NCBI GenBank assembly: GCA_024278215.1
Contig: JAJRTR010000135.1
Coordinates: 13,435-77,434 of the forward strand
Length of the DNA stretch: 64,000 bases
Source: a bacterium
GTDB taxonomy: Bacteria; UBP15; UBA6099; JAJRTR01
Direction of reading: 5' to 3'
Shown here: piece by piece, positions 11,191 through 57,649 of the stretch
Numbering within the stretch: the stretch's first letter is position 1
How the letters are laid out: each line of letters begins with the position of its first letter
Position numbers and translations under genes: made by a program
Notes under the pieces: model-generated
The model's input: only the letters and a program-made list of their open reading frames with translations
Database searches by the model: none
Told to the model about the DNA's origin: nothing

Positions 11191-11313
11191 TGTTTCCATC
11201 GCCTGCGGCGACACAGCGTTTTATTCAGAACCCGTTTCCATGTTGCACATATACGAAAGCATCCCGAATTGCACCGATATGTAACTTCACATAGAATATC
11301 AAAAACATATTAT

Positions 11314-11487
11314 CCCGCATATTTCACAAATGCGGGTGAAAAACCGGAAGAATGCCCATAATACAAGGCGCGGCAAGTGAGGGTGAGGAAGCATCCTGCA
11401 GGTATGTGACCGATCCCGAATCGCCGCCGCAACGTAGTAGAATGGGGGGTCTCACGGTTTTCCGGATCTCTTTGTGAGAAATCCGGG
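11314..11487. mobile_element. Family-1 repeat, copy A (MITE-like, 174 bp)
   Basis: The left end is a palindrome (CCCGCAT ... ATGCGGG, 11314-11336). The right end is another palindrome ending in ATCCGGG (11461-11487). Exact 4-bp direct repeats TTAT flank it (11310-11313 and 11488-11491). The core contains ACAAGGCGCGGCAAGTGAG, CTGCAGGTATGTGACC and CGCCGCCGCAACG, shared with copies at 26436 and 57437. It ends 27 bases before the ATG of the alpha/beta hydrolase and so forms most of that gene's upstream region. The stretch 11191-11313 before it holds no gene. Confidence 0.85.
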
Positions 11488-11513
11488 TTATCCTGGTTGA
11501 AGGAGAAACCCGC

Positions 11514-12446
11514 ATGTTGAGCGCAATAAAAAAGGCTGTCCTCTTTTTCTTTATTGTCGTCGTTTCCTTAATCCTGTTTATTTTAATCTTTCCCCTGGTA
11601 TACAAACCCGACATGATTGATCCCGCCCAACTGGATATCACGGGGAAATTCCTGCAACTGGACGACGGGATAAAAGTTCACTATATGGAACAGGGCAAGG
11701 GCGATGTGCTGCTGCTGATTCACGGCTATACGTCCAATCTCTATTCGTGGAACGAGGTGATGCCGGAGCTTTCGAAAAAATATCGCGTAATAGCGGTCGA
11801 CCTGCTGGGATACGGTTTCACGGACAAGCCGAAGGATGCGACATACAACTACCGTTCTTTTTCGGATGTCATCAAGAAATTTCTCGACAAAAAAGGGATA
11901 AGAAAACTTTCGATTGCCGGCAATTCGATGGGTGGCGGCACGGCCATACGTTTCGCGCTCGATCACCCGGCGATGGTGAATAAACTAATACTTGTGGACA
12001 GCTCGGGAGTGAAGTTCGCGCATGACCCGATGCTGCTCATCATGTTCGGAACCCCCGGACTGAACAATTTTATTTTCAGTATCATCAACAAGAGCATCAT
12101 GAAAAAATCACTGGAGTTCTGCTGCTACTACAACAACGATGCCGTGACCGACGAACGGGCATACCTGTATACATTTTCTTTCCGAACGAAGGGGTCGTTC
12201 AATTCCGTGACAAAAACCGTGATGCAGAACGACTTCGACGGGCTGGAGGATAAACTGGGAACCCTGAAAGCGCCGACGCTTATAATATGGGGCGAAAAAG
12301 ATATGCTGATACCCGCCACGACAGCGGGCAAGTTCCATCGGCTGATACCGAATTCGAAGCTTACGATTATCGAAAAATGCGGACACATGCCCCAGGAGGA
12401 AAAACCGGCGGTGACGATAGCGGCGATTGAAGGTTTTCTTAAATAA
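11514..12446 (+). CDS. Alpha/beta hydrolase, membrane-anchored
   Basis: 310 residues beginning after AAGGAG with eight-base spacing. An N-terminal hydrophobic segment (residues about 6-27, VLFFFIVVVSLILFIL) suggests a signal anchor, so the enzyme probably faces the periplasm. The fold is clear: oxyanion motif IHGYTSNLYSW, nucleophile elbow GNSMGGG (Ser), acid in IWGEKDML and catalytic His in EKCGHMPQEE. Substrate unknown; closest in style to haloalkane dehalogenase/epoxide hydrolase/lipase-like esterases. It stands alone between two repeat elements. Confidence 0.85.
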   Translation: MLSAIKKAVLFFFIVVVSLILFILIFPLVYKPDMIDPAQLDITGKFLQLDDGIKVHYMEQGKGDVLLLIHGYTSNLYSWNEVMPELSKKYRVIAVDLLGYGFTDKPKDATYNYRSFSDVIKKFLDKKGIRKLSIAGNSMGGGTAIRFALDHPAMVNKLILVDSSGVKFAHDPMLLIMFGTPGLNNFIFSIINKSIMKKSLEFCCYYNNDAVTDERAYLYTFSFRTKGSFNSVTKTVMQNDFDGLEDKLGTLKAPTLIIWGEKDMLIPATTAGKFHRLIPNSKLTIIEKCGHMPQEEKPAVTIAAIEGFLK

Positions 12447-12550
12447 AAATATTCGGGAGCGATCAGGGGCGCTCCGGGTTGTGCCGAAATTGCATTATTA
12501 TTGATACACGAGCGAGGGAACGGATATAATTGACAAATGTAAATCAACAT

Positions 12551-12730
12551 GAGTCGATTGAAAAATTATGTTCGAAAGCGAGGTCGAACGAAATTGGTCA
12601 GAAGCAAGGCGGAGGTGCAAAATCCCCGCAGGCGTACTTGTAGAGTACGTCGAGGACGATTTCGCGCCGACAACGCAGCTGTTGACAATTGCAGCTGACC
12701 GTAGCCGAATCAGAATTTTGCAATTGGCTC
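12551..12730 (+). mobile_element. Family-2 repeat, copy A (MITE-like, 180 bp)
   Basis: The left end GAGTCGATTGAAAAATTATG and right end AATTTTGCAATTGGCTC match the ends of the copy at 63806-63984 in inverse orientation. The interior shares GCAAGGCGGAGGTG, a small palindrome GTACTTGTAGAGTAC and GCCGACAACGCAGC. The pentamer AACAT flanks both sides (12546-12550 and 12731-12735). It carries an open frame that reads on into the K+ channel gene and makes a spurious N-terminal extension. It ends 39 bases before the channel start. The 104 bases between the hydrolase stop and the repeat hold no gene. Confidence 0.85.
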
Positions 12731-12769
12731 AACATGTATATCCATTTTGTTCGGAGCGAAAAAACGGGA

Positions 12770-13978
12770 ATGAAAGAGAAATTCCGGAAGATAATAAATA
12801 AGTTCTCGGACTTCATACTCGAAAAGTATGCCGCGATGCGCAGGTCGGACGTGCCGGTTATTGTCGGCATACTGACGGCGATTATTGTAATGGGCGCGTT
12901 GGGGATACTGCTGCTCGAAAGAGGATCGAATCCCGATATTTCCCGTTTTTACCAGTCGCTGTGGTTCATAATCGTTACACTGACGACAGTCGGCTACGGC
13001 GACCGCTCGCCGATAACGCCGGGCGGCCAGGCGCTCGACATGATACTCATGATGGTAGGCGTGGCCATTATGGGTGTGGTTACGGGCCGCATCGCTTCGT
13101 TTCTTGTGGAACAACAAATGAAAGCCGGACGAGGATTGGTAGGGATGTCAAAGATGGAAAAACATTTTATTATCTGCGGCTGGAAAAAAGACTTGCCCAA
13201 GATTCTCGAAGATGTTATGAAGGTCAATGTCGGTCTCAAGGCGGAGAATATCGTGCTGATTAACCGGCAGGACCATTCTGTGATCGACGACCTGAAGACC
13301 AACCCGGATTTCGCGAACATCAAATTTATCGCAGGCGACCACAGCGATGAAAATGTCCTCCAGCGCGCTAATATAAGAAGAGCGAAAACTATACTGATAC
13401 TCGCCGACACTTCGGGCAACGCCACTCCTCTCGAGATAGACTCGCGCACGGTCATGGCCGCGCTCACGGCTGAATCTCTAAACAAAAAACTTTACATCTG
13501 CGCGGAACTCCTCAACTCGAAATTTGAAAGGCATCTCGAACTGGGCAACGTCGACGAAGTCATTCTCAGCCAGGACTACAGCCGCACGCTCATCGCTAAC
13601 GCATCCAGCGCGTCCGGTGTGGGTCACGTGATCAACCAACTTATCAGCGTCGATTCGAACACGCCTCTTATCGTCAAGCAATTCCCTGACAAGTATATCG
13701 GTAAAACTTATAAGGAAATGTCGAGATATTTCTGGGATAAAGAGTTGTCGATCGTGATAGGCGTACTCGAGAACACCGGGAATCTGTTCCAGCGCAAGCA
13801 GGACGCGCTCAAAGAAGCGCAGAAAACACCGGACATTTCAAAACTTGTGGACAACCTCAAGAGCGTCAAAGAGATGAAGGCGAACGATCCGGTATTGAAT
13901 CCACCTGCCGACTATGAATTGAAGAAGAATTCCATGGCGGTAATGATCGGGAGGCACGCCCGCTATGAAACAAACTAG
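12770..13978 (+). CDS. MthK-like two-helix potassium channel with RCK domain
   Basis: 402 residues from the ATG at 12770; upstream in-frame starts lie in the repeat element or its edge and are rejected. Two transmembrane helices (VIVGILTAIIVMGALGILLL and the helix after the pore) enclose the selectivity filter TVGYGD. A cytoplasmic RCK/TrkA-N domain follows, starting KHFIICGWKKD, with the MthK-like ICGW in place of a classical GxGxxG. A C-terminal RCK-C-like part and a helical tail (DALKEAQKTPDISKL) end the protein. It overlaps the next gene, a cyclic-nucleotide-binding protein, by 14 bases. Role: ligand-gated K+ flux at the inner membrane. Confidence 0.88.
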   Translation: MKEKFRKIINKFSDFILEKYAAMRRSDVPVIVGILTAIIVMGALGILLLERGSNPDISRFYQSLWFIIVTLTTVGYGDRSPITPGGQALDMILMMVGVAIMGVVTGRIASFLVEQQMKAGRGLVGMSKMEKHFIICGWKKDLPKILEDVMKVNVGLKAENIVLINRQDHSVIDDLKTNPDFANIKFIAGDHSDENVLQRANIRRAKTILILADTSGNATPLEIDSRTVMAALTAESLNKKLYICAELLNSKFERHLELGNVDEVILSQDYSRTLIANASSASGVGHVINQLISVDSNTPLIVKQFPDKYIGKTYKEMSRYFWDKELSIVIGVLENTGNLFQRKQDALKEAQKTPDISKLVDNLKSVKEMKANDPVLNPPADYELKKNSMAVMIGRHARYETN

Positions 13979-14489
13979 AGAACAACTCGATGAGATAATC
14001 AAAACGCTGAAAGGTGTTTCGATCTTTAAGACTTTCGCCGAAAAGCCCGAAGAACTCGAGAAGATCGCGAGCATCCTGAAAATGGTCTCCATGAAATCGG
14101 GTGAAACCGTCATCAGGGAAGGTGACGACGGCGATACGCTTTTCATCATGAAGTCGGGCTCTGTAGACATCCTGAAAAACACGCTCCAGGACGAGCAATA
14201 CACTGTCGTAAATCTTTCGAGCAGCGAAAATATGATAATCTTTTTCGGAGAGCTTGCGTTGCTCGACAGCGACAAAAGGTCGGCGACTGTCCGGACGACG
14301 AAGGACTGCGATTTTCTGGTGCTGAAAAGGGACGACTTCATTCAACTCGGCGACCAGCACCCGAACCTGTGCCTGCCCATCACACGCGAAATATCAAAAA
14401 TGCTCGCTTCCCGCCTCCGCAAAGCAAACCAGGATATCATCACACTTTTCGAGGCGCTCGTTTCCGAACTTTCCGACGAAGACGCGTGA
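13965..14489 (+). CDS. Cyclic nucleotide-binding domain protein (stand-alone)
   Basis: 174 residues. Residues about 18-140 form a CAP-type cNMP-binding beta-roll: MKSGETVIREGDDGDTLFIM, then the phosphate-binding cassette FFGELALLDSDKRSATVRT with the Glu and Arg that contact cyclic phosphate in the family. There is no DNA-binding domain: the tail is a single helix. The gene overlaps the channel gene by 14 bases, so the two are co-translated. The likely role is a soluble cAMP/cGMP sensor subunit for the K+ channel; this is inference from overlap and domain pairing. Confidence 0.85.
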   Translation: MKQTREQLDEIIKTLKGVSIFKTFAEKPEELEKIASILKMVSMKSGETVIREGDDGDTLFIMKSGSVDILKNTLQDEQYTVVNLSSSENMIIFFGELALLDSDKRSATVRTTKDCDFLVLKRDDFIQLGDQHPNLCLPITREISKMLASRLRKANQDIITLFEALVSELSDEDA

Positions 14490-14577
14490 ATCTCCGACTT
14501 TATAGTGTCGTGTCATGCTTGTAACTGCGCAAGAGGTGTAGGGCGGGATCACCGTACCCAGCCTGACCATATTTCTC

Positions 14578-14616
14578 GCGATTTTACGGCTTTCTTTGTA
14601 AGAAAAACGGGCTAAT
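14578..14616. repeat. Degenerate family-1 right end
   Basis: GCGATTTTACGGCTTTCTTT followed by a degraded palindrome ending ACGGGCTAAT resembles the right end of family-1 copies. No left half is visible. It lies 20 bases before the ATG of the CoA ligase. Confidence 0.5.
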
Positions 14617-14636
14617 ATCAATTTCGGAGCGGATCA

Positions 14637-16742
14637 ATGGACAAACTTTTCTATCCTGAATCTATCGCTGTAGCGGGTGTTTCGGACAAACCGTCGAACA
14701 TGGCACGCATGATCATGTTCAATCTCGAACAGTGGAAATACAGCGGTAAGATATACGGAATCAACCCGGCCGGCGGAGAAGTGTTCGGCCACAAGATATA
14801 TCCGAAACTGACGGATATAAAAGGAAAGGTAGACGTGGTCGCGGTGCTCGCGCCCGCGAGAACCGTGCCCGACTTGCTCGATCAGGCCCACGAAAAGGGC
14901 GTCGAATATATGGTTATCGAGACCGCCGGGTTCTCCGAGTTCAGCGAGGAAGGCGCGAAGCTGGGTGAACTCGTCAAACAGAAAGCGGCCGACTACGGCA
15001 TAAAGTTTGTCGGCCCCAACGGACTCGGCACCATGTGCTCGCACAGCGGCGCGGTGCTGCCTTTCTCCTATATCCTGCCGCACGAGCCCGGCTGCGTGTC
15101 GATCATGTCGCAGAGCGGCGGCATCGGCATTTCCATCATCACCGGCCTGCACGAGCACAACCTGGCGACCAGCAAGTTCGTCTCTCTCGGCAATAAATAT
15201 TCGCTCGACGAGGTCGACTTCCTCGAATACTTTATAAATGATAAGGAAACAAAGATCATACTGTGCTATCTCGAAAGCATCAACCGCGGGCGCGAGTTCA
15301 CGGAAGTCGCCGCTTCGTCGCAAAAACCTATACTGCTCTGCAAGGCCAGCACGACGGAGGTCGGCGCGCGACAGGCTATCTCGCACACCGCCGCGCTCGT
15401 CAATGACGACCACGTGCTCGACGCCGCAATGAAACAGGCGGGCATCACAAGGGTCGAACGCCTCGATCAGCTCTATCACTTCGCGCGCACCTTCTTGCAG
15501 CCGCCGATAAAGAGCAACAGGATTTCGCTGGCCACGCCCGCCGGCGGCTTTGCCGTGCTCTCGGCGGACACCTGCGCCAGATACGGTTTCGAGTTTCCCG
15601 ATCTCGCGCCGGCCACCGTCAGAGCGCTCCAGGCGAAGCTCCGCGCGGGTGTCATCAATATCGGCAATCCCATCGATCTGGGCGACGCGCTCGGCACGGA
15701 CACGCTGCTGCTCGCAATGGATAAAACACTCGCGCAGGACGACATAGACGCCTGCATACATGTATCGTCACGGCGGCCCGCTAATCAGTATAAAGGCCCC
15801 TTCAAGATCATGATGCGCAACCCGATCCCCGAGATACCGGCCATAATAAAAAAACATAATAAGCCGGCTGTCGTCGCCTTCATCGGCGCACCGGAACTGG
15901 TCCGGGAATACCGTGCGGATTCCGAGATACCCGTCTACCATTCCGTGGACCTCGCCATAGAGGCGCTCGCAGCCTACCGCGATTTCTGCACACGCCCGAA
16001 ACCCCAGGCTCCCAGCCGCCGCCGACCACGCATACCTGCCGCGGCACGCAAAAGGCTCGATGCTCTCGAACCTGGCATCGTCACGGGTGCCGCGGCTTTC
16101 CGCGTGCTGCGCGACGCGAAGATTCCCGTCTGCGAATTCCGGGAAGTCGCAACACCCGAACAGGCCGTCGACGCCGCCGTCCGCCTCGGCTATCCTGTCG
16201 CGATGAAAATAGATTCGCCTCACATCATCCACAAAACCGAGTTCAGGGCGCTCCACCTGAAACTGCGCTCCGACCGCGAAGTACTCTACGCCTACGGCGA
16301 ACTCGAAAAAGTGCTGCAAGAGCACAATGTCGAAGGCAAGATACTTGTCCAGGAAATGGCGGGTCCCGGCATGGAAGTTATTATCGGCTCGAAACACGAC
16401 CCGCAGTTCGGCCCCGTGCTCATGTTCGGGCTTGGCGGGGTCTTTGTCGAAGTGCTGCACGATGTCGTGTTCCATCTCGCGCCGATCAAGAGATACGAAG
16501 CGCTCAACATGATAGATTCCATCCACTCCGCGCCGTTGCTCAAAGGCACACGCGGACTACCGCCCGCAGACATAAAAGCACTCGCCGATTCGCTCATCGC
16601 CGTAAGCCACCTCATCGCCGCGCGGCCAGTAATCGCCGAGCTGGACATCAACCCGATGATCGTCAAAGAGAAAGGGCAGGGTTGCGTCGCTGTCGACGCC
16701 CGCTTCGTCCTATCCGAAAAGCGGCCCCGAAAAAAGAAATGA
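14637..16742 (+). CDS. ADP(NDP)-forming acyl-CoA synthetase, fused alpha-beta type
   Basis: 701 residues starting after CGGAGCGG. Order: CoA-binding domain (residues 1-130, SIAVAGVSDKPSN), succinyl-CoA-ligase-like domain with VGPNGLGTM and SQSGGIG, the phosphohistidine loop ISHTAAL near residue 260, then a linker and an ATP-grasp domain (residues about 480-695, with AMKIDSPHIIHKTE and LFGLGG-like stretch MFGLGGVFVEVL). The enzyme interconverts acyl-CoA + ADP + Pi and acid + ATP + CoA; anaerobes use it for acetate or branched-acid formation with ATP gain. It lies 56 bases before a D-aminoacylase gene, suggesting that the acid released there is its substrate. Confidence 0.9.
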   Translation: MDKLFYPESIAVAGVSDKPSNMARMIMFNLEQWKYSGKIYGINPAGGEVFGHKIYPKLTDIKGKVDVVAVLAPARTVPDLLDQAHEKGVEYMVIETAGFSEFSEEGAKLGELVKQKAADYGIKFVGPNGLGTMCSHSGAVLPFSYILPHEPGCVSIMSQSGGIGISIITGLHEHNLATSKFVSLGNKYSLDEVDFLEYFINDKETKIILCYLESINRGREFTEVAASSQKPILLCKASTTEVGARQAISHTAALVNDDHVLDAAMKQAGITRVERLDQLYHFARTFLQPPIKSNRISLATPAGGFAVLSADTCARYGFEFPDLAPATVRALQAKLRAGVINIGNPIDLGDALGTDTLLLAMDKTLAQDDIDACIHVSSRRPANQYKGPFKIMMRNPIPEIPAIIKKHNKPAVVAFIGAPELVREYRADSEIPVYHSVDLAIEALAAYRDFCTRPKPQAPSRRRPRIPAAARKRLDALEPGIVTGAAAFRVLRDAKIPVCEFREVATPEQAVDAAVRLGYPVAMKIDSPHIIHKTEFRALHLKLRSDREVLYAYGELEKVLQEHNVEGKILVQEMAGPGMEVIIGSKHDPQFGPVLMFGLGGVFVEVLHDVVFHLAPIKRYEALNMIDSIHSAPLLKGTRGLPPADIKALADSLIAVSHLIAARPVIAELDINPMIVKEKGQGCVAVDARFVLSEKRPRKKK

Positions 16743-16798
16743 TCTTGCGCCACACGCAGAACTGATGTCATGGACGCGCTCGAGCCGGAGGAACACAG

Positions 16799-18283
16799 AT
16801 GGCGGGAATACTGATAAAAAACGGAACGGTGATAGACGGCACGGGCAGTCCCGGCAGGCAGGCCGACGTACTCGTTGAAGGTGAAAGAATAAAAGAGATC
16901 GGCGAAATATCCGAAGAAAATGATAAAAAAGCCGACCCGGAAATCCGTGTCGTCGACGCCGCCGGCAAAGTCGTCTGCCCCGGTTTCATCGACATACACG
17001 GCCACAGCGACTTCTCCGCGCCGGTGCGCGGAGAGATGGAAGAGAAGATCAGACAGGGCGTAACGACCGTCGTCACAGGCAGTTGCGGCTTCTCGGGCGC
17101 GCCCTCCAACCCGCGCTTCGTCAACTATTTCAATCGCTACACCGGCGGCATGTTCGGCAGGGAATGTCCGTTCGAGTGGCAGAGTATGCGCGAGTATCTC
17201 GAATATCTTGTGGACAAAGGCATCGCCGCCAACATCGTGCCGCAAGTGGGGTTCGGCAACCTGAGGGTGATGGCCAGGGGGCTCGCGCCCGGCGCGGCCA
17301 ACAAATCGCAGATAGACGAAATGAAAAATATGCTCGCGCAGGCGCTCGACGAAGGCGCGCGCGGGTTCACTACAGGTCTGGTGTACCCGCCGCAGAGCAT
17401 GGCCGGCGCGGACGAAATAATGGAATTGGTCAAAGTGCTGTCGGGGCGCGACGCGGTCTACGCCACGCACGTTCGCAACGAGATGGACGAACTGGAAAAT
17501 GCCGTGCGGGAAGCCGTCGACACTGCCCGCGCGGCGGATGTTTCACTCCAGATATCGCACCATAAGGCGATCCTCCAGCGCAACTGGGGCAAAGTCCGCA
17601 ACACAATCGCCATGATCGAAAAGGCACGCGCGGAAGGGCTCGATGTCGAAACAGACGTCTATCCCTACACTGCTTTCTCGAACGTCATCATGCCGTTCTT
17701 CTTCAAATACGAACCCGGCATGGAAGACAACATCCTTTTTCTTCACATGAAGCACTACAAGGAATGCGAGGGCAAAACACTCGCCGAAGTCATGCGCATG
17801 AAACACATGGGCATCAAGCGCCTGATACTTACGATGGCGCTCAAAGAAGGCCTTACCGGGATGCCCATCGCAGGCTTCATGATCGGCGAAGAAGACCTGA
17901 ATTTCCTGCTCGCGCACCCCATCGTATCCATCGGCTCCGACGGCGTCGAATCATTCGGTGAAAAGGCTCATCCCCGGCTCTGGGGCACTTTCCCTCGAAT
18001 GCTCGAAAAATATTGCCGACAGGACAAACTTGTCTCCATCGAGGAAGCAATCCGGAAAATGACGACTATGGCCGCACGGAAATATCACCTGAAAATGCGC
18101 GGCGAACTTAAAGAACAATACTTCGCGGACATCGCAGTGTTCGACCCGGCGAATATAGCAGAAAACACCACATATCGCGACCCCCTGCAACTGCCCACAG
18201 GCTTCGAGGCGGTAATTGTCAATGGAAAAATCGCAGTCTACAAAGACGTCCGCACCGGCGAGCGCGCGGGCCTCCCGCTCTGA
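16799..18283 (+). CDS. N-acyl-D-amino-acid deacylase (second copy)
   Basis: 494 residues, the standard family length, with GGAGGA six bases before the ATG. Metal-site landmarks: DIHGHSDF, the Cys of GSCGFS, the His of YATHVRNE, the His of LQISHHKA, the Asp of SIGSDGVES. The C-terminus has the usual FADIAVFDPANI and VIVNGKIAVYKD ending. It follows the ADP-forming CoA ligase closely and probably shares its transcript. It is clearly paralogous to the protein at 1021 but shorter and diverged, so the two may take different N-acyl substrates. Confidence 0.87.
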   Translation: MAGILIKNGTVIDGTGSPGRQADVLVEGERIKEIGEISEENDKKADPEIRVVDAAGKVVCPGFIDIHGHSDFSAPVRGEMEEKIRQGVTTVVTGSCGFSGAPSNPRFVNYFNRYTGGMFGRECPFEWQSMREYLEYLVDKGIAANIVPQVGFGNLRVMARGLAPGAANKSQIDEMKNMLAQALDEGARGFTTGLVYPPQSMAGADEIMELVKVLSGRDAVYATHVRNEMDELENAVREAVDTARAADVSLQISHHKAILQRNWGKVRNTIAMIEKARAEGLDVETDVYPYTAFSNVIMPFFFKYEPGMEDNILFLHMKHYKECEGKTLAEVMRMKHMGIKRLILTMALKEGLTGMPIAGFMIGEEDLNFLLAHPIVSIGSDGVESFGEKAHPRLWGTFPRMLEKYCRQDKLVSIEEAIRKMTTMAARKYHLKMRGELKEQYFADIAVFDPANIAENTTYRDPLQLPTGFEAVIVNGKIAVYKDVRTGERAGLPL

Positions 18284-18324
18284 CAGCCGATGCGCCGAAA
18301 GGAAATAAGCAATAGTGCATAATC

Positions 18325-25184: not shown

Positions 25185-26390
25185 TTACGCGCTGAGGTTT
25201 CCTGCCTGTGTTGTACTGCCGAATTCATAGTTCGGCTCGATGGAGACTCGCAGGCAATGCCGGCCGATAATCTTGGGCGGTGCCTGCCTCAGCGAAAGTC
25301 CGGCCGCCACGCTCATATACGGCACGAGAGCAGCGACTCTTTCAGGCGATTCGTTTCCTATGTACACCATGTTTTTCAGCGGATTGGCATGAACCGCCGG
25401 GATGCCCAGATCGTCTTCGAAATATCTGGCTATTCCCTTCAAATATGATCCGCCGCCGGTGATGATTATTTTCGTTACATTTTCTCCACGGTATTTCGAT
25501 GTATAGTATGCGAGCGACCTTCTTATCTCGAGAGCCAGATTCTCAATGTGAGGCCGTATAAGCTCATACACATCGCGCGTCTCGTCGTCTATCTCGATGA
25601 ACTCCGATTCCTCGTCTATAAAAGCGAGTCCTTTTTCCTTTTTCAATCTTTCCGAATCGAGGTATTCGGCTCCGAAGCCCGATTCAATAGCGTGTGTCAG
25701 CGTGTCGCCGCCTGTGCCGAATATCCTTGTGAAGCGCAGGATGCCGTTTTTGAGAATGCTGACACTTGACGCGCTTGCGCCAAGGTCCAGAAGCAGAAAT
25801 GTTTGTGTAAAAGTATCCTGATCGTCGAAAAGTGAAGCCTCGACTACCGAACGCAGCATGACAAAAGGGTCCACGTCGATTTCGACAGACTCGACACCGC
25901 CTATATGTGCCGCTTCGACTCGCCTCTGTACCGCTTCTCGATGGGCCGCGACGAAAAGCACACTCGTCTGTTTCACATCTCCCTGCTTTATTTCTCCCAG
26001 CACCTCGTAGTCGTATTCCATTTCATCCAGCGGGAACGGAAGAAAACGCTCGACTTCGCCTATCGCCGCGACTTTCAGTTCTTTATCGCTGAGGCCGACC
26101 GGCAGTGAAACCTGCCTGATGACAACCGCGCGGCCCGGAAGAGAACACACAACTCGTTTCTCTTTAAAGTTGTAAACTTTCAGTATCTGGTATATCGCTT
26201 CGCCTATGGCGTCCGCATTGTTGATCACGCCGTCGGTGATCGAGCCGATGGGCGTGGCTGCGAAACCGACATTCGCCAGTTGCAAACGAGCAGAAGTCGG
26301 CACGATATGCACCATCTTGATGTATCTCGTCCCTATATCAAGGCCGACTTTTGCCGAGTGGCCGCCTGATCCCAATCCGAAAATCGCCAA
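25185..26390 (-). CDS. pilM: Type IV pilus assembly ATPase-like protein PilM
   Basis: 401 residues, actin-like fold: VGLDIGTRYIK (phosphate 1), a central LLDLGASASSV, and IIITGGGSYLKG (adenosine region). It is cytoplasmic and binds the PilN N-terminus. Translation begins at TTG with AAGGTG eight bases upstream. The start is 45 bases from a family-1 repeat, so the pilMNOPQ promoter must lie in or just before that repeat. The first gene of the pil operon. Confidence 0.92.
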   Translation of the reverse strand: MAIFGLGSGGHSAKVGLDIGTRYIKMVHIVPTSARLQLANVGFAATPIGSITDGVINNADAIGEAIYQILKVYNFKEKRVVCSLPGRAVVIRQVSLPVGLSDKELKVAAIGEVERFLPFPLDEMEYDYEVLGEIKQGDVKQTSVLFVAAHREAVQRRVEAAHIGGVESVEIDVDPFVMLRSVVEASLFDDQDTFTQTFLLLDLGASASSVSILKNGILRFTRIFGTGGDTLTHAIESGFGAEYLDSERLKKEKGLAFIDEESEFIEIDDETRDVYELIRPHIENLALEIRRSLAYYTSKYRGENVTKIIITGGGSYLKGIARYFEDDLGIPAVHANPLKNMVYIGNESPERVAALVPYMSVAAGLSLRQAPPKIIGRHCLRVSIEPNYEFGSTTQAGNLSA

Positions 26391-26435
26391 TTTAATTGCA
26401 CCTTAATCTTAGTAATTTGCCTTTCGCACTGCTAA

Positions 26436-26610
26436 CCCGCATATTTCACCAATGCGGGCCAAAAATCGGGAGAATGCCTGTAATACAAGGCGCGGCAAGT
26501 GAGTGGTGCGGGAGCATACTGCAGGTATGTGACCAATCCCGAATCGCCGCCGCAACGCAGTAGAACAGGCGTTATAGCGATTTTCCGGATTTCTTTGCGA
26601 GAAATCCGGG
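26436..26610. mobile_element. Family-1 repeat, copy B (MITE-like, 175 bp)
   Basis: Left palindrome at 26436-26458 and right palindrome ending ATCCGGG at 26610. The core is nearly identical to copies A and C (ACAAGGCGCGGCAAGTGAG, then CGCCGCCGCAACGCAGTAG). Flanking tetramers are CTAA and CCAA, one base from an exact duplication. It lies directly upstream of pilM. ORFs drawn through it are in inconsistent frames between copies and are not genes. Confidence 0.85.
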
Positions 26611-26819
26611 CCAATAATTAAGTGAAGTATATTATATATACTACTATACAGCAAGACAAAAAAATTTTTCCTGATTCTGAATAATCTGAATTTTCTCGGG
26701 GTTAAAATATCGGCAACGCCGGCATATAAGCCGAATAATGTCGAGATTTACTCGGTCTCCGTATCGACCGAATATTGAATATCGCCGCCGAAAACCCGTT
26801 CGGCTTCTTTTCTTCTGTC

Positions 26820-26866
26820 GAGCCGATTGCTAAACTCTGATTCTGCTGCGGTCGGCTCTATTATTC
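26820..26866. repeat. Family-2 end fragment
   Basis: GAGCCGATTGCTAAACTCTG followed by ATTCTGCTGCGGTCGGC matches the first 40 bases of the family-2 copy at 63806. The remaining 130 bases of the element are absent. The stretch 26611-26819 to its left has no gene or clear structure. Confidence 0.65.
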
Positions 26867-26917: not shown

Positions 26918-26991
26918 TAGCCAGGGGCGGACTCGAACCGCCGACGCCACGGGTATGAGCCGTGTGCTCTAACCAGCTGAGCTACCTGGCC
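26918..26991 (-). tRNA. tRNA-Met (anticodon CAT)
   Basis: Read on the minus strand it begins GGCCAGGTAGCTCAGCTGGT and ends CCCCTGGCT plus discriminator A. The acceptor stem GGCCAGG/CCTGGCT has one G-U pair. The anticodon stem-loop is CACGG-CTCATAC-CCGTG with anticodon CAT; the T-arm has GGTTCGAGTCC. CCA is not encoded. D-arm and stem features match an elongator Met tRNA; a tRNA-Ile2 with lysidine modification cannot be fully excluded from sequence alone. Confidence 0.93.
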
Positions 26992-31191: not shown

Positions 31192-31403
31192 GCAGAACAT
31201 TTTCTGGCGAGGAACTCGTGAAAGCACTCCGAAGATCAGGATTTGTTGTCGATCATCAGAGAGGCAGCCATATTTTCATGCATAATCTGGAGAAAAATAT
31301 ATCCGTTATTATCCCATTGCATAAAGAGGTTAAAAAAGGCACCTTGAATAACATCATCAAGAAAGCAGGCTTAACATTGAACGAGTTGCAGGAGCTTGTT
31401 TAA
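31188..31403 (+). CDS. hicA: HicA-like mRNA interferase toxin
   Basis: 71 residues with a dsRBD-like fold: [14 protein letters not shown], then RGSHIFM with the catalytic His28, then [21 protein letters not shown]. It begins at TTG within the hicB stop, giving coupled and probably weak translation. HicA cleaves mRNA when HicB is lost. A family-1 palindrome follows the stop and may serve as terminator. Confidence 0.88.
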
Positions 31404-31433
31404 CCCGGATTTCTCACAAAGAAATCCGGGTTA
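31401..31433. repeat. Solo family-1 right-end palindrome after hicA
   Basis: A near-perfect palindrome with arms TAACCCGGATTTCT and AGAAATCCGGGTTA-like sequence around CACAA. It is identical in type to the right end of the full family-1 copies but stands alone. The hicA stop codon TAA (31401-31403) is contributed by the repeat itself. It may act as a hairpin terminator. Confidence 0.75.
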
Positions 31434-31468
31434 AACAGGAAATTTGTGGGATATGATGTGGCAGATAA

Positions 31469-32335
31469 ATGATAGAACACTTCAGAAAATATCTTAAAGA
31501 ATTCGGTTCAAAAGAACTTGCCGGAAAACTCGATCGCGTCATGGCCGGGAAAAAAGACTCCGGCGAATCGGGCGATGTCGACAAATTCGGTTTCGACCCC
31601 GCTTATCTCAAAGACTACTTCCCCGCGATGCACGCAGTCTACAGGAACTGGTTCCGCACCGGCACGCACGGGCTGGAGAATCTGCCCGCCGACGGCCCGG
31701 CGCTGATAATCGCCAACCACAGCGGACAGGTGCCCATCGACGGCCTGCTGCTCACCACCGCCGCCATCCTCGAAACCGACACTCCGCGCCTGCTTCGCTC
31801 GATGATCGACTACTGGGTGCCGGGGCTCCCGTTTTTCAGCGTGCTGTTCGCGCGCATGGGGCAGGTTGTGGGCGTTTGGGAGAACGCTGTCGAACTGCTC
31901 GCCGACGGAGAAATGCTGCTAATATTCCCCGAAGGCACACGCGGGCTGGGCAAAACATGGGACAAGCGCTACCGGCTGCAGGACTTCACAGTCGGTTTCA
32001 TGGAACTCGCCGTCATGTACGACGCGCCCATTATCCCCACAGCCGTCATAGGCGGCGAAGAGCAGATGCCCAGCCTCTTCGACGCACAGCCTATCGCGAA
32101 ACTACTAAACGCGCCTTACTTCCCCATCACACCGACCTTTCCGCTGTTCGGACTCAAGGGCGCGGTGCCCTATCCCGTGAAATACGACATATACTTCGGC
32201 GAGCCGCTGGACTACTCACAGTACAAAGACGACTTGCCCCACCCCGAGCGCATCAGGCACCATGTTGAAGAAGTCAGGACGATACTCCAGGAAATGATCG
32301 ACGAAAAGCTCAAAGACCGCACATTCCCATTCTGA
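31469..32335 (+). CDS. PlsC-like acyltransferase, second copy
   Basis: 288 residues. Motif I NHSGQVPIDG (again H-x6-D), motif III intact FPEGTRGLG, then FMELAVMYDAPIIPTAVIGG and YDIYFGEPLDY. Compared with the gene at 30075 the order of segments is the same and many phrases are shared, so the two are paralogues separated by the HicBA insertion. This copy keeps the FPEGTR motif and is the more clearly active. No strong Shine-Dalgarno precedes the ATG. Confidence 0.84.
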   Translation: MIEHFRKYLKEFGSKELAGKLDRVMAGKKDSGESGDVDKFGFDPAYLKDYFPAMHAVYRNWFRTGTHGLENLPADGPALIIANHSGQVPIDGLLLTTAAILETDTPRLLRSMIDYWVPGLPFFSVLFARMGQVVGVWENAVELLADGEMLLIFPEGTRGLGKTWDKRYRLQDFTVGFMELAVMYDAPIIPTAVIGGEEQMPSLFDAQPIAKLLNAPYFPITPTFPLFGLKGAVPYPVKYDIYFGEPLDYSQYKDDLPHPERIRHHVEEVRTILQEMIDEKLKDRTFPF

Positions 32336-39971: not shown

Positions 39972-40322
39972 AATTCAAACCAGACATGTTATGAGTTCAA
40001 AACCTGAATATTTCATTGATGCGTGCTATGTGCGGCTAAAGTGCAGTTCCCGCAACGCGTTGCAGCCGATCCGGGCAAAAACGCTACAGATCGGATTGTA
40101 TTACCCGCATTGGTGAAATATGCGGGTTAATATTTCGCGCAGGCACGCCTCCTCACCGCCCTGTTTCAAACTCTGTAAATACTCTCCTGAAATAATACCA
40201 CAACATGAACATGATGACAAAAACTTCGGCATATCCCCATATCTGTATTCGAGACCTGCGCAAAAACAAGTTGGCACGACGATAGCCTGATATTTTGGCC
40301 CTCGGTGGTGAAATATGCGATG
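39972..40322. other. Intergenic region with family-1 palindrome scraps
   Basis: No gene is supported. A solo left-end palindrome with arms CCCGCAT and ATGCGGG lies at 40104-40126 (centre TGGTGAAAT). A further scrap GGTGAAATATGCGA at 40307-40320 touches the end of the STAS gene. No promoter is clear. Confidence 0.6.
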
Positions 40323-46264: not shown

Positions 46265-46289
46265 TTATCGAATGTCCTTCCGGTTGATG

Positions 46290-48639: not shown

Positions 48640-48797
48640 TTATTCTCCTCCACCGGTTTCCCTTGTACTCCCGGTTACTCTCTTGAGCCGATTGCATTAT
48701 TCCGTCCATCATCGGTCGGCTGCAATCAGCCATCCTGCGTATTCCTGCTGTATATTCGACTCCACATTCGAGTCGGCCTGCTTATTCATTCGACCGT

Positions 48798-50309: not shown

Positions 50310-50364
50310 ATTCAGTTCCCTTGGTTTCCGTTAAATGTTCTCAATCCTTCTCCGGCACCTGTTT

Positions 50365-51708: not shown

Positions 51709-51741
51709 TGTGTTTTCTCCTTATTGTCGCTCCTGAATTTG

Positions 51742-52377
51742 TCACCAGTCTCTCGCGTTCCGGACGAAACCGAATTCGCAGGCCATATATGCACGGGTGA
51801 ACACGAAATAGAGCATGTGCGCAATTCGCGTGAAGGGGATCATCATCAGCATCAGGCAGCCCGACAGCATGTGTATTGTGATTACCGTGCCGTAGTCGAA
51901 CCACTGGTGATAGGCCAGAAACCCGGTGATATAAGGAAGCGTGACAAACAGCAACAGCGCGTAGTCGGCCGCCGATGTGACATTCTTCACATAAGGCACA
52001 AGTATCCGCCGCTGGAGAAAATATACACCGCCGACGATTACTATTACCGTCATCAGGTCCGCAAGCCGGCCGGGCAGCGTTGGGAACTGTATGCCCCATA
52101 TCTTCCAGTGAGCCGCCAGCAGCAGCGGCGTCGCTATCAGGCATATATGGAACAGAAACGCATACGCCGTCATAACCGGGTTGATCCTCATACCCCTGGT
52201 GCCGTAAGGCAGCAGCCAGTGTTTGAGCGACCGCAGACTGAAGCTCAGCCGCATATACGGCATTATCACTTTTTCCTGTTTCGCCGCCTTTATCATCGCT
52301 GTTATTTTGTAGACGCTGCCCGCGATCATCACGAAGAAGGCTATCCAGACTAAAGGCCCGCTGATAAAATCCTGCAT
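51742..52377 (-). CDS. hmcE: HmcE/TmcC-like cytochrome b membrane subunit
   Basis: 211 residues, five or so transmembrane helices with the NarI/DsrM-like fold: MTAYAFLFHICLIATPLLL, VYFLQRRILVPYVKN, TGFLAYHQWFDYGTVITIH and MLMMIPFTRIAHMLYFVF. The histidines in FHIC, YHQW, TIHM and IAHM are candidate haem b ligands. It carries electrons between quinones/HmcA and HmcF. The gene follows tmcD by 149 bases. Confidence 0.9.
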   Translation of the reverse strand: MQDFISGPLVWIAFFVMIAGSVYKITAMIKAAKQEKVIMPYMRLSFSLRSLKHWLLPYGTRGMRINPVMTAYAFLFHICLIATPLLLAAHWKIWGIQFPTLPGRLADLMTVIVIVGGVYFLQRRILVPYVKNVTSAADYALLLFVTLPYITGFLAYHQWFDYGTVITIHMLSGCLMLMMIPFTRIAHMLYFVFTRAYMACEFGFVRNARDW

Positions 52378-52526
52378 TTGGTTTCCCTCGACTCCTTTTC
52401 CGGTCCTGTCACAACCCGGATCCGGATTATTTTTCTTATCCAGTGCATTACAAGTGAACGCCGGGCATTCGACCGGTGAGTACGGGCCGGAGAACCCCGG
52501 ATCGACAAAAAACGCACAAACTTCAG

Positions 52527-53789
52527 TTATTTTATTTCATTAAGCGGCATCACACGCCGACAATACTTTCCGCCTTCGACATACCTGAGCAGAACCTTCG
52601 CGCCGTCCGGGCTCATTATCGGCTCCCATAGCATTTCAAACGGCTGGTTCCAGACCCTGCCGTCTACCGCGACAAAGTATTTGCCGTCCTGCTCGCCCTT
52701 GGCGACGACCGACGAACCGTCATGGCTAAACGCCGGTTTCCAGACCATATCGAAATCCACCGGCCACGGCTTGCCGTCCACACATATCGACCACCTGTTG
52801 TTGTCCTTCGTGATCGCCGCCACCCTCGCGCTGTCCGGCGAAAACACCTGATCGCGCACAACGTCCGCAAACGTGATGTCCCACGCCCTGTCGTCCACGG
52901 CGACCGTCGTCCTGCCGAACTCCGGGCACACAACCGCGCAGACCCTATTCGCGTCCGGGCTGAAAACAAGTTTCCATATCTGCATGAACCGGCTGTCCCA
53001 GATCGGCGAACCGTCCTCGTAGAGCGCGAACCCGCCCGCTGTCTTCACAGGCGCCAACAGCGACCCCGTGCCCGGCCTGAACCCGGGCTCCCACACATGC
53101 GCGAAAATCTCCGGCCATAATTTTCCGTCCGCCACTATCCCGTACTTCATGTTGTCGACGCGCACCTGAAGCCCGACATGCCTGCCGTCGTCGCTCAGTG
53201 TCACTCCCCACGTGTTCATATACTTGTCGTCCCAAGGCTTGTCGTCCACTACCACGCCCCACGTGCCATCGAGAAAAGTGAATACATCGGCTTCCGACAG
53301 TTCCTCAAGCTGCGCTAGAACAGCGACCGTCGCGCCGTCCCTGCTCATCTGAAATTCCCTTATTGACAGATACGTGTTTTCCCAGGGCTTACCGTCGATA
53401 CATACCGAATACTGAAAGTTCTTCTTCGTCTGCACACCGATGCGACCGCCGTCCGCGCTGAATTGCGTGTTCCAGACATACTCGAACTTCTCGTCCCATA
53501 CGCTGCCGTCCACCCCCACTGTCCACTCGTCGTCGCTCATTACCAGCGCCGCAAGCCGCGCGTCCGGCCCGAATCGCGGATACCACAGCCTCTCAAAACG
53601 CGCATCCCACAATTCACCATTCACACATGCCGTGAATTCGCCGTCTCCCGTTTTCACAGGGACAGCTATCTTCTCGCCGTCGCCGCTGACGACAAATTCA
53701 TGGACCTCGGAATATTTATTCCCGATATCAGCGACATCAGCGATAATCTTTTTGTCCGGTTCCCAATTCCAGTCTTTATAATCCGGCAT
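52527..53789 (-). CDS. tmcD: TmcD-like tryptophan-rich beta-propeller protein
   Basis: 420 residues from the ATG at 53789 (AAAGGAG six bases upstream), beginning MPDYKDWNWEPD. About eight repeats of roughly 50 residues each carry V-DGKPW or VNGELWD-type turns and a W-F-S-DG strand (e.g. VWNTQFSADGGRIGVQT, IWKLVFSPDANRVCAVV). The Trp-rich repeats match TmcD of Tmc complexes (TmcD is reported as tryptophan-rich). No signal peptide is seen, so it is probably cytoplasmic. It sits first among the structural genes, directly behind rrf2. Confidence 0.82.
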   Translation of the reverse strand: MPDYKDWNWEPDKKIIADVADIGNKYSEVHEFVVSGDGEKIAVPVKTGDGEFTACVNGELWDARFERLWYPRFGPDARLAALVMSDDEWTVGVDGSVWDEKFEYVWNTQFSADGGRIGVQTKKNFQYSVCIDGKPWENTYLSIREFQMSRDGATVAVLAQLEELSEADVFTFLDGTWGVVVDDKPWDDKYMNTWGVTLSDDGRHVGLQVRVDNMKYGIVADGKLWPEIFAHVWEPGFRPGTGSLLAPVKTAGGFALYEDGSPIWDSRFMQIWKLVFSPDANRVCAVVCPEFGRTTVAVDDRAWDITFADVVRDQVFSPDSARVAAITKDNNRWSICVDGKPWPVDFDMVWKPAFSHDGSSVVAKGEQDGKYFVAVDGRVWNQPFEMLWEPIMSPDGAKVLLRYVEGGKYCRRVMPLNEIK

Positions 53790-53899
53790 CTGCTTCTCCT
53801 TTGTTGCACAGCCTCTCGACATCGTCGCCGCATGACCGCGAAATACTTTTCGCGCGCATCACACTGTCTCCATTGTTTTTGCTCCGCGCCGACACGGCG

Positions 53900-54379
53900 T
53901 CACATCTTCTTGTCGCATTTCACAGTGACCGGCGGCTCGGCCTCACCGGTACGCTCTTTATATCTTTCCAGCATCTTCGTTTCCGAAAGGTCGTTCAGCG
54001 AATATTCCGCCAGTACATCCGTTATCTGCGCCTTGATCAGCCCCCACATCTTTCGCGACGTGCATACATCCTCGAACTTGCAGTTCCCCTCGTAAGTTAC
54101 ACAGTCGAGCAGGTCGATGCCGCCCATGCTCGCGTCGATCACATCCAGCGCTTTTATCCGGTCGCCGGGTTTCGCCAGCGTGTAGCCTCCCAGCTTTCCC
54201 TGCACACTCCTGATGAGGCCCTGGTTTTTCAGCGCCATCACGAGCTGTTCGAGATACTTAAAAGGGAGCCCCTGTTCTTTAGCGATTTCCTTGAGTTTGA
54301 TAGGTTCGCCACGATCATAATTATCGGAGAGATAGACCATCAATCTAAGTGAATATATAGCGCGAGTAGATAATCTCAT
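53900..54379 (-). CDS. rrf2: Rrf2-family transcriptional regulator
   Basis: 159 residues from the MRLSTRAIYS start at 54379. Winged helix: TRAIYSLRLMVYLS, LKEIAKEQGLPFKYLEQLV, RSVQGKLGGYTLA. Three cysteines in CVTYEGNCKFEDVC (spacing C-x6-C-x5-C) match the Fe-S ligands of IscR-type members, implying redox or Fe-S sensing. Rrf2 takes its name from the hmc operon regulator. It is the promoter-proximal gene of the hmc/tmc row and has an IscR-like site in its own promoter. Confidence 0.92.
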   Translation of the reverse strand: MRLSTRAIYSLRLMVYLSDNYDRGEPIKLKEIAKEQGLPFKYLEQLVMALKNQGLIRSVQGKLGGYTLAKPGDRIKALDVIDASMGGIDLLDCVTYEGNCKFEDVCTSRKMWGLIKAQITDVLAEYSLNDLSETKMLERYKERTGEAEPPVTVKCDKKM

Positions 54380-54520
54380 AATAAAACCGCCCAAAAAGCC
54401 GACTTACGCCCTACTTATCCTGTCGAACTGGTAGGGTTACGCGGCGAAAAAATATATTGCTCCTGAAACATGAGCAATATCCCCTTCCGCAACAACCTTT
54501 TTTCGGGTTTACCCTCCGTT

Positions 54521-54568
54521 TATCCTATTAGTCAGATATGATTATAACGGTTACCGCAGAAAATGCAA
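54521..54568 (-). promoter_or_regulatory. Predicted hmc/rrf2 promoter with IscR/Rrf2-like operator
   Basis: On the minus strand TTGCAT (54568-54563) and TATAAT (54546-54541) are spaced by 16 bases, a strong sigma-70-like promoter. Just downstream is ATATCTGACTAATAGGATA (54539-54521), whose left half resembles the IscR type-1 consensus (ATAxxTGACTAAA). The operator would be between the -10 and the transcript, fitting repression by the Rrf2-type product. The gene starts 141 bases further on. Other parts of 54380-54740 show nothing I can assign. Confidence 0.6.
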
Positions 54569-54740
54569 TACCCTTATAGATTTTTTTTCAGGTGACCTGC
54601 TAACCTGCGCTGTTTTTTACTCTTATTTGCTAAATTCGTGTGCTCTTTCGATATTATGTGAGAGTTCCGGGCACATGGCTGTCCCGCTCCCGGGGTAGCC
54701 TCTGGGAACAATGAAATACCTGTATGGGGGTGAGCATTTT

Positions 54741-55802
54741 TTATCTGTTATATTTATAGAGGTCTTCCTGGGTCATGTCGGGGGGAAGGTTCTTTATTCC
54801 CCAGTCTCTGCCGTCGTCGAAGTTCTCGATCACTCTTTTCCAGTTGGATTTTCCGTGACTGTCAAGCGTCATCTTATATCTGCGGCTCTTCATCGTCGAG
54901 TTCACCAGCTTATAGAATGCCATATCTTCCATGGAAATATCGTTTGCACTTAGTGAACTCGACTTCTTCATCCACTTTTTGAGAGCGTTGTACTCTTCTT
55001 CGGTGCAACCGTAGAGACAGTCCTTTTTGTCCATCGCACTCGCTATTTCAGGGTTTGCTTTCTTCCATCTCGTCATCTTTGTTTCCATCGCCACCGCATC
55101 CGTCACCTTCAACTCTGTGAGGATATCGATCCCCTTGTATCTGACCTCGATTTTCCTGACCAGCACAGGTGACAACTGCACCATTTTATATAGAGCGTCC
55201 TCGAGGAACCTGTTGAACTGGTCCTGGTAGTCGGACATGAAGATCGGGATGGGCACCGGCATTACGCCGATGTAGAACCTGTCGAGATAGAGGTATGGTC
55301 TTTGTTCTTTGTCGATCCAGTAGGCGTTGAGGACAAAGGTGAAAGAAACGGTTCCCGCGTCTTTGTCGGCGGGTGTGAGCCGGTCGATATTTTCTTTCAG
55401 TTCGTAGCCCGCGAATTTGTTGCTGATCATCTTCAGGGCCGTTGCAAAAGGCACGTCCACGCGAAAAACAAGATTCCCCTTGTTGACGAAAAGATACGGA
55501 TATTTGAAGAGAGGCGCGCCCCCTACCGTCAGGTTGTCTACCAGCAACTTGTTTATCCAGGCGTTGATCTCGATTTCACTTATGCTGAATATGCCGACAT
55601 TCACTGTTTTTCGCGTGTCTTCGACGAAACGGTTGAACTTCTCTTTCAGGTGCTCGCGGGCGACGGGGTATACTTCTTCCCTTATCTCGGCTCTCACGAT
55701 GTACGGCGGCGGCATTGTGCTCATGGCGATATATATGCCCGCGAATCCGAAGAATAAGAGTACGGACAGGCAGCCGAACATTTTGAAGCTGAGTTTGATC
55801 AT
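54741..55802 (-). CDS. Membrane-anchored protein of unknown function
   Basis: 353 residues. One N-terminal helix (KMFGCLSVLLFFGFAGIYIAM) anchors a periplasmic part that is mixed alpha/beta: EEVYPVAREHLKEKFNRFV, FSISEIEINAWINKLL, LVFRVDVPFAT, YLYLDRFYIGVMPVPIPIFM. It has two cysteines near residue 265 (DCLYGC). I do not recognise the family. The pattern of alternating strands around PYLYLDRFYIGVMP recalls lipid-binding or BON/AsmA-like tube domains, a guess only. The next gene upstream (pmbA-like) lies 15 bases away on the same strand, so the two are probably co-transcribed. Confidence 0.65.
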   Translation of the reverse strand: MIKLSFKMFGCLSVLLFFGFAGIYIAMSTMPPPYIVRAEIREEVYPVAREHLKEKFNRFVEDTRKTVNVGIFSISEIEINAWINKLLVDNLTVGGAPLFKYPYLFVNKGNLVFRVDVPFATALKMISNKFAGYELKENIDRLTPADKDAGTVSFTFVLNAYWIDKEQRPYLYLDRFYIGVMPVPIPIFMSDYQDQFNRFLEDALYKMVQLSPVLVRKIEVRYKGIDILTELKVTDAVAMETKMTRWKKANPEIASAMDKKDCLYGCTEEEYNALKKWMKKSSSLSANDISMEDMAFYKLVNSTMKSRRYKMTLDSHGKSNWKRVIENFDDGRDWGIKNLPPDMTQEDLYKYNR

Positions 55803-55817
55803 AACCTGACTCCGCTA

Positions 55818-57173
55818 TCAGTCTCCGCTCGCCACATTCATTCCCCCGAGCAGTATCGAAGGCATGATATTGCCTGCTTCCTCGCGGTAGTCGGAGGAGA
55901 CGGCCTCGATGCTTTTCAGTGTATCGAAGACTTCGCCGCCGACCATCACGTTCTCGACGGGATACGCAAGTTCGCCGCCGATGATCCTGAAACCGTAATC
56001 GACAGTGCCGGAAACCTGGCCTGTGATGCTGTGCGGCGTGATCGAGCCCATGAAAACATAGAGCCCGTCGTCGATTCTGCCAATAATATCTTTTTCCGTT
56101 TCTGCGCCCGGCCTGATGACGAGATTTGAGATGCCGATGCCGACACTCGAACTGTAGCTGCCGCGCGAGGCGTGGCCGTTGTTCTTTTCACCGGCCTTGT
56201 TTGCCGTGTAAGAATTGTGCAAATAGTTGCTGAGCACACCGTTTTCAATAATACTGAACTGTGATTTCGGGAATCCCTCGCCGTCCGCATTCGTCGAGCG
56301 CAGACCGGCCGCCACGAGCGGGTCTTCCCTGATATCGATGAGTTCCGACGCGATTTTTTCGCCCCTTTTGCCCGCGAGATACGATCTGCCGCGCTGTATT
56401 TCTTCCGCGCTTGCCGCACCTGCTACACTGCGCAGGAAACCTGTTGCGGCCAGCGGGCCGAGCACTATGGGGAATTTCCCGGAATCCATCCTTCTGCTGT
56501 CGACGAAAGATACCGCTTTTTCAGTGGCGATCCGGGCGATTTCTTCGGGCGATTTCAGGTCCGCTATACGCCTCGCATGTGAATACTCGTAATACGAACC
56601 GACTTTCCCATTCCTGCTGACGACGGAAAATACATACATAGAAATCGATGATTTACTACAACAGAGGGAAATGCCGTTGGAGTTGACGAGTGCGCTTGCT
56701 ACGGCCCCCGCGCCTACTCCGCCTTTTACGATTACGTCCGGCTCGATATCCCTTGCGACCTCGATGAATGTGTTGCCCCATTCGATAGCTTTCGAAGGCG
56801 TGAAATCGCTTATCGCCAGGTCGAAAAGCGCGTCGACTTCGGGGTATTCGCCCGGTTCGGGCAGCGCGTCGAAATCCGGGTCCGGTTCGCTTTCCTTCGC
56901 CAGTTCCGCGCCTGTCCGGCCGGCGCTTTTCGCGTCCTCGATTGCGAATCCGCGACCGCGGCTGTAGCCCGAGCCACCTTCATAAAACGCCCTGGCACAG
57001 TATCCGGCATCGTATTCGACATCTGAAGTACGCACGCTGTTTTTCTCTATTTCGAGGCCGACGCTGCGACCGTCCTGCACAATAACATCCACATGCTGCG
57101 CCCCGCTCTTAACCGCCGCTTCGCACGCGACTTTTCCGAATTCAACAATTCTGTAATCTTCCATATTCTGCAT
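55818..57173 (-). CDS. pmbA: TldD/PmbA family protein (PmbA/TldE-like)
   Basis: 451 residues of the typical PmbA length. Conserved stretches: CEAAVKSGAQHVDVIVQDGRS, GLEIEKNSVRTSD, the C-terminal FRIIGGELAYPVENVMVGG and the SASAEEIQRGRSYLAGKRGEKIAS region. TldD's zinc motif HExxxH is absent (EEIQRGRSYL instead), so this is the PmbA/TldE-type non-metal subunit. It normally pairs with TldD to cleave peptides such as microcin B17 precursors; no tldD gene is in this window. The downstream partner at 54741 is an unknown anchored protein. Confidence 0.85.
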   Translation of the reverse strand: MQNMEDYRIVEFGKVACEAAVKSGAQHVDVIVQDGRSVGLEIEKNSVRTSDVEYDAGYCARAFYEGGSGYSRGRGFAIEDAKSAGRTGAELAKESEPDPDFDALPEPGEYPEVDALFDLAISDFTPSKAIEWGNTFIEVARDIEPDVIVKGGVGAGAVASALVNSNGISLCCSKSSISMYVFSVVSRNGKVGSYYEYSHARRIADLKSPEEIARIATEKAVSFVDSRRMDSGKFPIVLGPLAATGFLRSVAGAASAEEIQRGRSYLAGKRGEKIASELIDIREDPLVAAGLRSTNADGEGFPKSQFSIIENGVLSNYLHNSYTANKAGEKNNGHASRGSYSSSVGIGISNLVIRPGAETEKDIIGRIDDGLYVFMGSITPHSITGQVSGTVDYGFRIIGGELAYPVENVMVGGEVFDTLKSIEAVSSDYREEAGNIMPSILLGGMNVASGD

Positions 57174-57400
57174 ATTCCCATCTGTGGTCTGTTTTACACA
57201 GCTATCGTTATTATTATAGTATAGTATACTCCAGTAGTGTCCAAAATATTACCTGATTACCCCTGAAACTCAGGTAGTGGTGATTTTAAAAAACAACCAT
57301 CCGGTTTTGTGTAGTGCGGGGTCACCGCCCTTGTCTACATCTTCCACCGAATTTATTGCGTATGCGTCCCTCTTCTCGCTTTTGAACCAAATGCAGCCGG

Positions 57401-57432
57401 ACGCAGCCGGATCAGAATATTGCAATCGGCTC
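57401..57432. repeat. Family-2 right-end fragment abutting family-1 copy C
   Basis: The stretch CAGCCGGATCAGAAT plus ATTGCAATCGGCTCT resembles the right end of family-2 (CAGAATCAGAATTTTGCAATTGGCTC). It lies immediately before the family-1 element at 57437, a nested or adjacent arrangement. The bases 57174-57400 have no gene. Confidence 0.6.
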
Positions 57433-57436
57433 TTAC

Positions 57437-57627
57437 CCCGCATATTTCACCAATGCGGGCCGAAAATCGGGAGAATGCCTGTAATACAAGGCGCGGCAAG
57501 TGAGTGGTGAGGGAGCAGCCGGCCTCTTGCGCAAAATGCTGGTATGTGACCGATCCCGAATCGCCGCCGCAACGCAGTAGAACAGGCGTTATAGCGATTT
57601 TCCGGATTTCTTTGTGAGAAATCCGGG
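57437..57627. mobile_element. Family-1 repeat, copy C (MITE-like, 191 bp)
   Basis: Left palindrome 57437-57459 (arms CCCGCAT/ATGCGGG); right palindrome 57601-57627 ending ATCCGGG. Exact flanking tetramers TTAC at 57433-57436 and 57628-57631. The core matches copies A and B but has an extra 16-base or so insert (CCGGCCTCTTGCGCAAAATG) making it longer. It lies 22 bases from the 3' end of the PAP2 gene. Confidence 0.85.
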
Positions 57628-57649
57628 TTACATCTTTTCATCGTTGACA

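Follow-up and report, generated by a model that had tools for sequence, protein, structure and literature searches.

The DNA under study is a stretch of 64,000 nucleotides, below called the window, which carries three full copies of a short repeat (family 1) and, in addition, solo palindromes of the same family. These features are listed here together with the tetramers flanking them.

11314-11487, forward strand: full copy 1, with the target duplication TTAT (11310-11313) / TTAT (11488-11491)
26436-26610, forward strand: full copy 2, flanked by CTAA (26432-26435) / CCAA (26611-26614)
57437-57627, forward strand: full copy 3, with the target duplication TTAC (57433-57436) / TTAC (57628-57631)
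31404-31430, forward strand: solo right-end palindrome of 27 bp, CCCGGATTTCTCACAAAGAAATCCGGG, between TTAA (31400-31403) and TTAA (31431-31434)
40104-40126, reverse strand: solo left-end palindrome CCCGCATATTTCACCAATGCGGG, flanked by TTAA / TAAT
4751-4773, forward strand: solo left-end palindrome with one mismatch, flanked by CTAA / TGAA
19828-19850, reverse strand: decayed solo left-end palindrome with three mismatches, flanked by TTAT / TGCC

All three full copies sit between likely genes. Copy 1, composed of a left palindrome (11314-11336), a core and a right palindrome (11461-11487), stops 26 bp short of the ATG of the open reading frame (ORF) 11514-12446; copy 2 is intergenic, with the reverse-strand ORF 25185-26390 on one side and a reverse-strand tRNA (26918-26991) on the other; and intergenic copy 3 has the reverse-strand ORFs 55818-57173 and 57650-58300 on either side. 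The copies are alignable from end to end with a mean column identity of 87%, copy 3 differing chiefly by a 16-bp internal insertion and copy 2 being the nearest of them to the genome consensus. A preliminary description of this DNA had reported three full elements with palindromic ends, flanked by the tetramers TTAT/TTAT, TTAC/TTAC and CTAA/CCAA; its coordinates are all correct and the tetramers are exactly as described, and the solo palindromes at 4751, 19828, 31404 and 40104 had been overlooked. The layout of the element comprises a left palindrome of 23 bp, a structured core and a right palindrome of 26-27 bp, with terminal inverted repeats (TIRs; CCCGCATATTTCAC / CCCGGATTTCTCAC) and a flanking 4-bp duplication of an NTAN target, mostly YTAR. 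The element measures 174-200 bp and carries no gene; the main length class in the genome, 173-200 bp (below 500 bp), is too short for a transposase gene. In the search with Rfam at the gathering score only the tRNA was recognised in the window and the family-1 element was unmatched.

Other repeats lie nearby. A second family with inverted ends AGAGCCAATTGCAAAATT...AATTTTGCAATTGGCTCT is located at 12638-12730, 26813-26856 and 63799-63985 of the window, often adjoins family-1 palindromes and is likely another MITE. Segments 1031-1091 and 16809-16869, which are 75% identical, are placed close to where ORFs 1015-2751 and 16799-18283 begin, and these two ORFs are probably paralogous.

The genome to which the window belongs (4.55 Mb in 207 contigs) contains at least 40 scored matches to copy 2, with E values from 1e-86 to 1e-37, and a fragment; this is a lower bound, the best 40 of 375 candidate places having been scored. 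With up to three mismatches the genome has 280 occurrences of the left palindrome CCCGCATATTTCACMAATGCGGG and 144 of the right one, compared to none of the reversed control patterns of both. The scored matches at these E values, and the palindrome counts against zero for the reversed patterns, show that the repeats are not a product of chance. Within stretches covering about a quarter of this genome 55 full elements were readable, with an NTAN tetramer at the left flank in 46 and at the right flank in 43; the two flanking tetramers were identical in 19 of the 55, where re-pairing of the flanks gave an expectation of 4.4 (0 of 10,000 shuffles). The three repeats of the window are copies of a short gene-less mobile element, of which the genome has dozens in full form, along with palindromic ends numbering several hundred. 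Its ends are conserved genome-wide and its tetramer duplications exceed chance, and the recent mobility proposed earlier holds for many copies, in which the ends are near-identical and the duplications intact.

The element is present in five genomes of the same order (G001 and G003-G006), where its left palindrome is CCCGCATTTTTCACCAATGCGGG and its core has diverged, and in some copies of G005 both arms are altered (CCCACAT...ATGTGGG). The exact palindrome of the own genome was found in none of the other named genomes. Outside family 1, three more high-copy repeats, each in dozens of places, were noticed in G001, G003, G004 and G006. In a first search for empty sites, four sister genomes were queried with the joined flanks of elements, 12 of them full and 4 solo. 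G001 and G006 lack the element at the site of L262 (G003) and have a single CTAT there. The site of L270 (G006) is unoccupied in both G001 and G003, those of L260 and L254 (both G004) are empty in G006, and that of L253b (G004) in G003. Several full copies among the sister-genome homologues have an unoccupied counterpart in which the target tetramer stands once, which is direct evidence of insertion with a 4-bp duplication for the form of the element carried by those genomes.

The core of the element is a conserved, covarying palindromic fold. For copy 2 the fold has a z value of -6.6, and in 32 aligned sequences 93.7% of the pairs of the proposed fold are retained, compared to 83.6% when shuffled and 29-41% when slid. 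The covariation score of the same 32 sequences is 0.360, in comparison to 0.197 after shuffling and no more than 0.098 after sliding. The outer stem is left out of the covariation evidence, its region being misaligned by one column between two lineages. The covarying changes hit both helix sides in step, and since most of them separate two lineages they amount to few events. A strong fold with covariation across two bacterial families, as well as some solo palindromes kept at the same site in several genomes, could be expected of an element retained for a host function (as an RNA or a terminator) and not of a selfish one. Such a function is improbable, however, given that the copies are scattered and differ in presence between sister genomes, that no Rfam match exists and that the covariation comes mainly from one split between two lineages.

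The transposase was searched for by PF13701 and PF01609 in the own genome and six genomes of the same order, and all 20 loci obtained were scanned for the ends of the element. The preliminary description had placed the source elsewhere in the genome or considered it extinct, and the own genome yields just a decayed IS1380 remnant of 92 aa. A full-length transposase element with related ends was found in G006: among the 20 loci, only its intact IS1380 gene (L072, met again in the overlapping L080) has matching ends on both sides. This gene encodes an IS1380-family transposase of 484 aa (E = 1e-147) within an element of 1757 bp, whose left end reads CCCGGATATTTCACCA after TTAA and whose right end, in reverse complement, reads GGCGCATTTTTCACC; these ends are diverged from those of the window element, and the flanks TTAA / TATG are mismatched. 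End-like motifs on a single side were seen at L088. No intact autonomous IS1380 partner with these exact ends was found in the own genome, an absence which is weak evidence because that assembly consists of 207 contigs; insertion sequences are often missing from metagenome assemblies. Left-right pairs of ends at 300-2500 bp show no excess which would indicate long gene-bearing elements.

Relatives of the G006 protein were then compared at 80 loci of other genomes, 65 of them distinct and with both ends readable. These 65 loci come from many phyla. Their TIR is CCCGGATTTCTCACCA, the elements are 1640-1855 bp long, YTAR flanks occur on the left in 63 and on the right in 62, and 49 have exact duplications, in comparison to 29 by shuffling. 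The TIR search was seeded with the motif and the tetramers were not, so the latter constitute an independent test. The right end of the window element, CCCGGATTTCTCAC, is identical to the TIR of this clade over 14 bases, and the exact TIR is also borne by the solo right palindrome 31404-31430, located 38 bp before ORF 31469-32335. As judged by sequence comparison, both the ends and the duplications of the MITE agree with those of one clade of insertion sequences in the IS1380 family (PF13701). Movement by an unseen transposase, as originally suggested, is supported by the ends, the duplications, the empty sites and the IS1380 match, and the MITE interpretation, which was right, can now be specified to the IS1380 type.

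Two other enzymes have to be considered. Some IS5-type transposases also duplicate YTAR, and a MITE moved by an IS5-type enzyme would share this target pattern and might have its source in the DDE_Tnp_1 genes of the own genome; these genes were nevertheless rejected as the source, as no matching ends (CCCGSATTTCTCAC) stand beside any of them, and the 14-base end match is to the IS1380 clade, which makes such an origin highly improbable. Palindromes of 20-30 bp present in hundreds of copies, as singlets and doublets, also bring to mind REP/REPIN sequences moved by a Y1 tyrosine transposase (RAYT), and the own genome (G000) has six Y1_Tnp (IS200/RAYT-like) matches, at C56:24161, C6:35766, C115:55606, C201:4222, C59:2390 and C112:80568. 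This explanation is hardly credible and was rejected because target duplications are present: Y1 single-strand transposition makes neither 4-bp duplications nor one-tetramer empty sites. Moreover, the ends match IS1380 elements instead, and G001 and G003 carry the elements with no Y1_Tnp match.

In the own-genome sample solo palindromes are more numerous than full copies, and 85 of 158 left palindromes have no recognisable core. The lengths of left-palindrome forms fall into two classes, 23 bp and 173-244 bp, and few forms lie in between. Identical tetramers directly at the palindrome were noted in 15 of the 85 solo left copies, where 4.8 would be expected (P < 1e-4); this excess is restricted to offset 0. 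As a residual core can begin with CCAA, CTAA, TTAA or TGAA, these right tetramers were removed in a stricter test, where 5 exact duplications among 37 copies were still found against 1.4 expected (P = 0.006). The palindrome is exactly intact in 38 of 85 solo left and 26 of 55 full copies. A second search for empty sites in sister genomes, with 11 solo sites, revealed an exact difference of 27 bp (23 + 4) at three of them (L321 vs G001, L314 vs G006 and L312 vs G001). The presumed empty site of L264 in G001 and two for L307 are too diverged to count, and L328, empty in G006 by length, actually has a diverged palindrome there. Solo palindromes occupy the same site in two or three sister genomes in the sets L305/L332, L310/L320/L326, L308/L316/L329 and L306/L317/L327; some have a possible start codon a short distance downstream, and it is possible that these same-site palindromes are adopted regulatory hairpins.

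The exact duplications at solo left palindromes, in the first test as in the stricter one, the two length classes, the three 27-bp differences and the almost equal intactness of solo ends could all be explained if the bare palindromes of 23-27 bp were mobile themselves, their two arms serving as the two ends and the full element being composite or enlarged. This is unlikely, however: an element of 23 bp could scarcely accommodate a transposase dimer at both its ends, full insertion followed by precise internal deletion yields the same 27-bp difference, about one third of solo copies have a short A-rich, core-like start, and many sister-genome solo copies are old, being common to three or four genomes. 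That a DDE transposase moves a bare palindrome of 23-27 bp as a self-sufficient unit, which inserts alone with a 4-bp duplication, is regarded as quite unlikely. Separate subfamilies of solo copies were also considered and rejected, the sequence beyond the palindrome being mostly unrelated.

The solo left palindromes are most likely precise internal-deletion products of the MITE. Rare deletion forms of 45, 56 and 66 bp occur in the own genome, and short forms are present in G005 too. The 45-bp form at L099 9869 (C160:69869), built of the left palindrome, ten bases and the last 12 of the right end between an exact GTAG/GTAG, looks like a natural internal-deletion derivative. Against a deletion/decay route speaks the intactness of solo left palindromes, which is near that of full copies and is not predicted by a pure decay model; among the 12 full-element sites probed, no full element in one genome corresponded to a solo palindrome in another.

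On the whole, with a probability of roughly 90%, family 1 is a non-autonomous, cut-and-paste MITE family moved by an IS1380-family DDE transposase, with solo forms that most likely arise by internal deletion. The IS1380 transposase would bind the ends CCCGSATWTYTCAC and move the MITE into NTAN/YTAR sites, with the duplication of 4 bp that is seen in the flanks and empty sites. Each end of the MITE is itself a palindrome, with an inner arm that mirrors the end. The bases of the palindromes have short direct repeats, CGGG on the right side of both and CCG at the left end and, in the right palindrome, at the inner base. These repeats may allow precise internal deletion, which would leave one terminal palindrome between the target duplications. 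Solo right palindromes have an extra C at the left base, which agrees with this route because the joining of CCG to CCG predicts an extra C.

IS1380 transposases serve as the prokaryotic outgroup of piggyBac, which duplicates a 4-bp TTAA and has ends beginning mostly with CCC (PMC10813416). With IS1380 insertion sequences, distant piggyBac relatives, the MITE shares the ends CCCGSATTTCTCACC and the 4-bp YTAR duplication, but it lacks a transposase gene, has 174-200 bp in contrast to about 1750 bp, and possesses palindromic ends and a structured core. Bacterial MITEs such as Correia, ERIC, QMITE and Chunjie are likewise short, gene-less, intergenic and folded, with TIRs and direct repeats, and truncated copies of QMITE2 of Coxiella are REP-like, as are the solo forms described here (PMC10969869 and general knowledge). 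A review of prokaryotic MITEs from 2024 does not mention IS1380 (PMC10969869), and no IS1380-type MITE was found in the literature searched, that is in titles and partial abstracts, with ISfinder and most subscription papers outside this scope. REPINs consist of two palindromes around a spacer, and single ones are thought to be remnants formed partly by internal deletion (PMC3116915). Palindrome pairs and many singles are common to both systems; however, the enzyme chemistry of RAYTs is different, whereas the family-1 element makes target duplications, carries its palindromes at the outer ends and has solo palindromes that are almost as well preserved as the ones of full elements. The closest precedents for these solo forms are found in the singlets of REPINs and the truncated copies of QMITE2.

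The element is ordinary in kind, with a transposase pairing that is unreported in the literature searched and a minimal form of some interest. An abundant bacterial MITE is tied in this way to the IS1380/piggyBac line, a pairing not encountered in that literature, and a second, chemically different path to REP-like populations of short palindromes is indicated. Sites of presence and absence in sister genomes make the origin of solo palindromes directly testable. If solo mobility were true, these palindromes would be among the smallest transposable units known and would form a REP-like population without RAYT.
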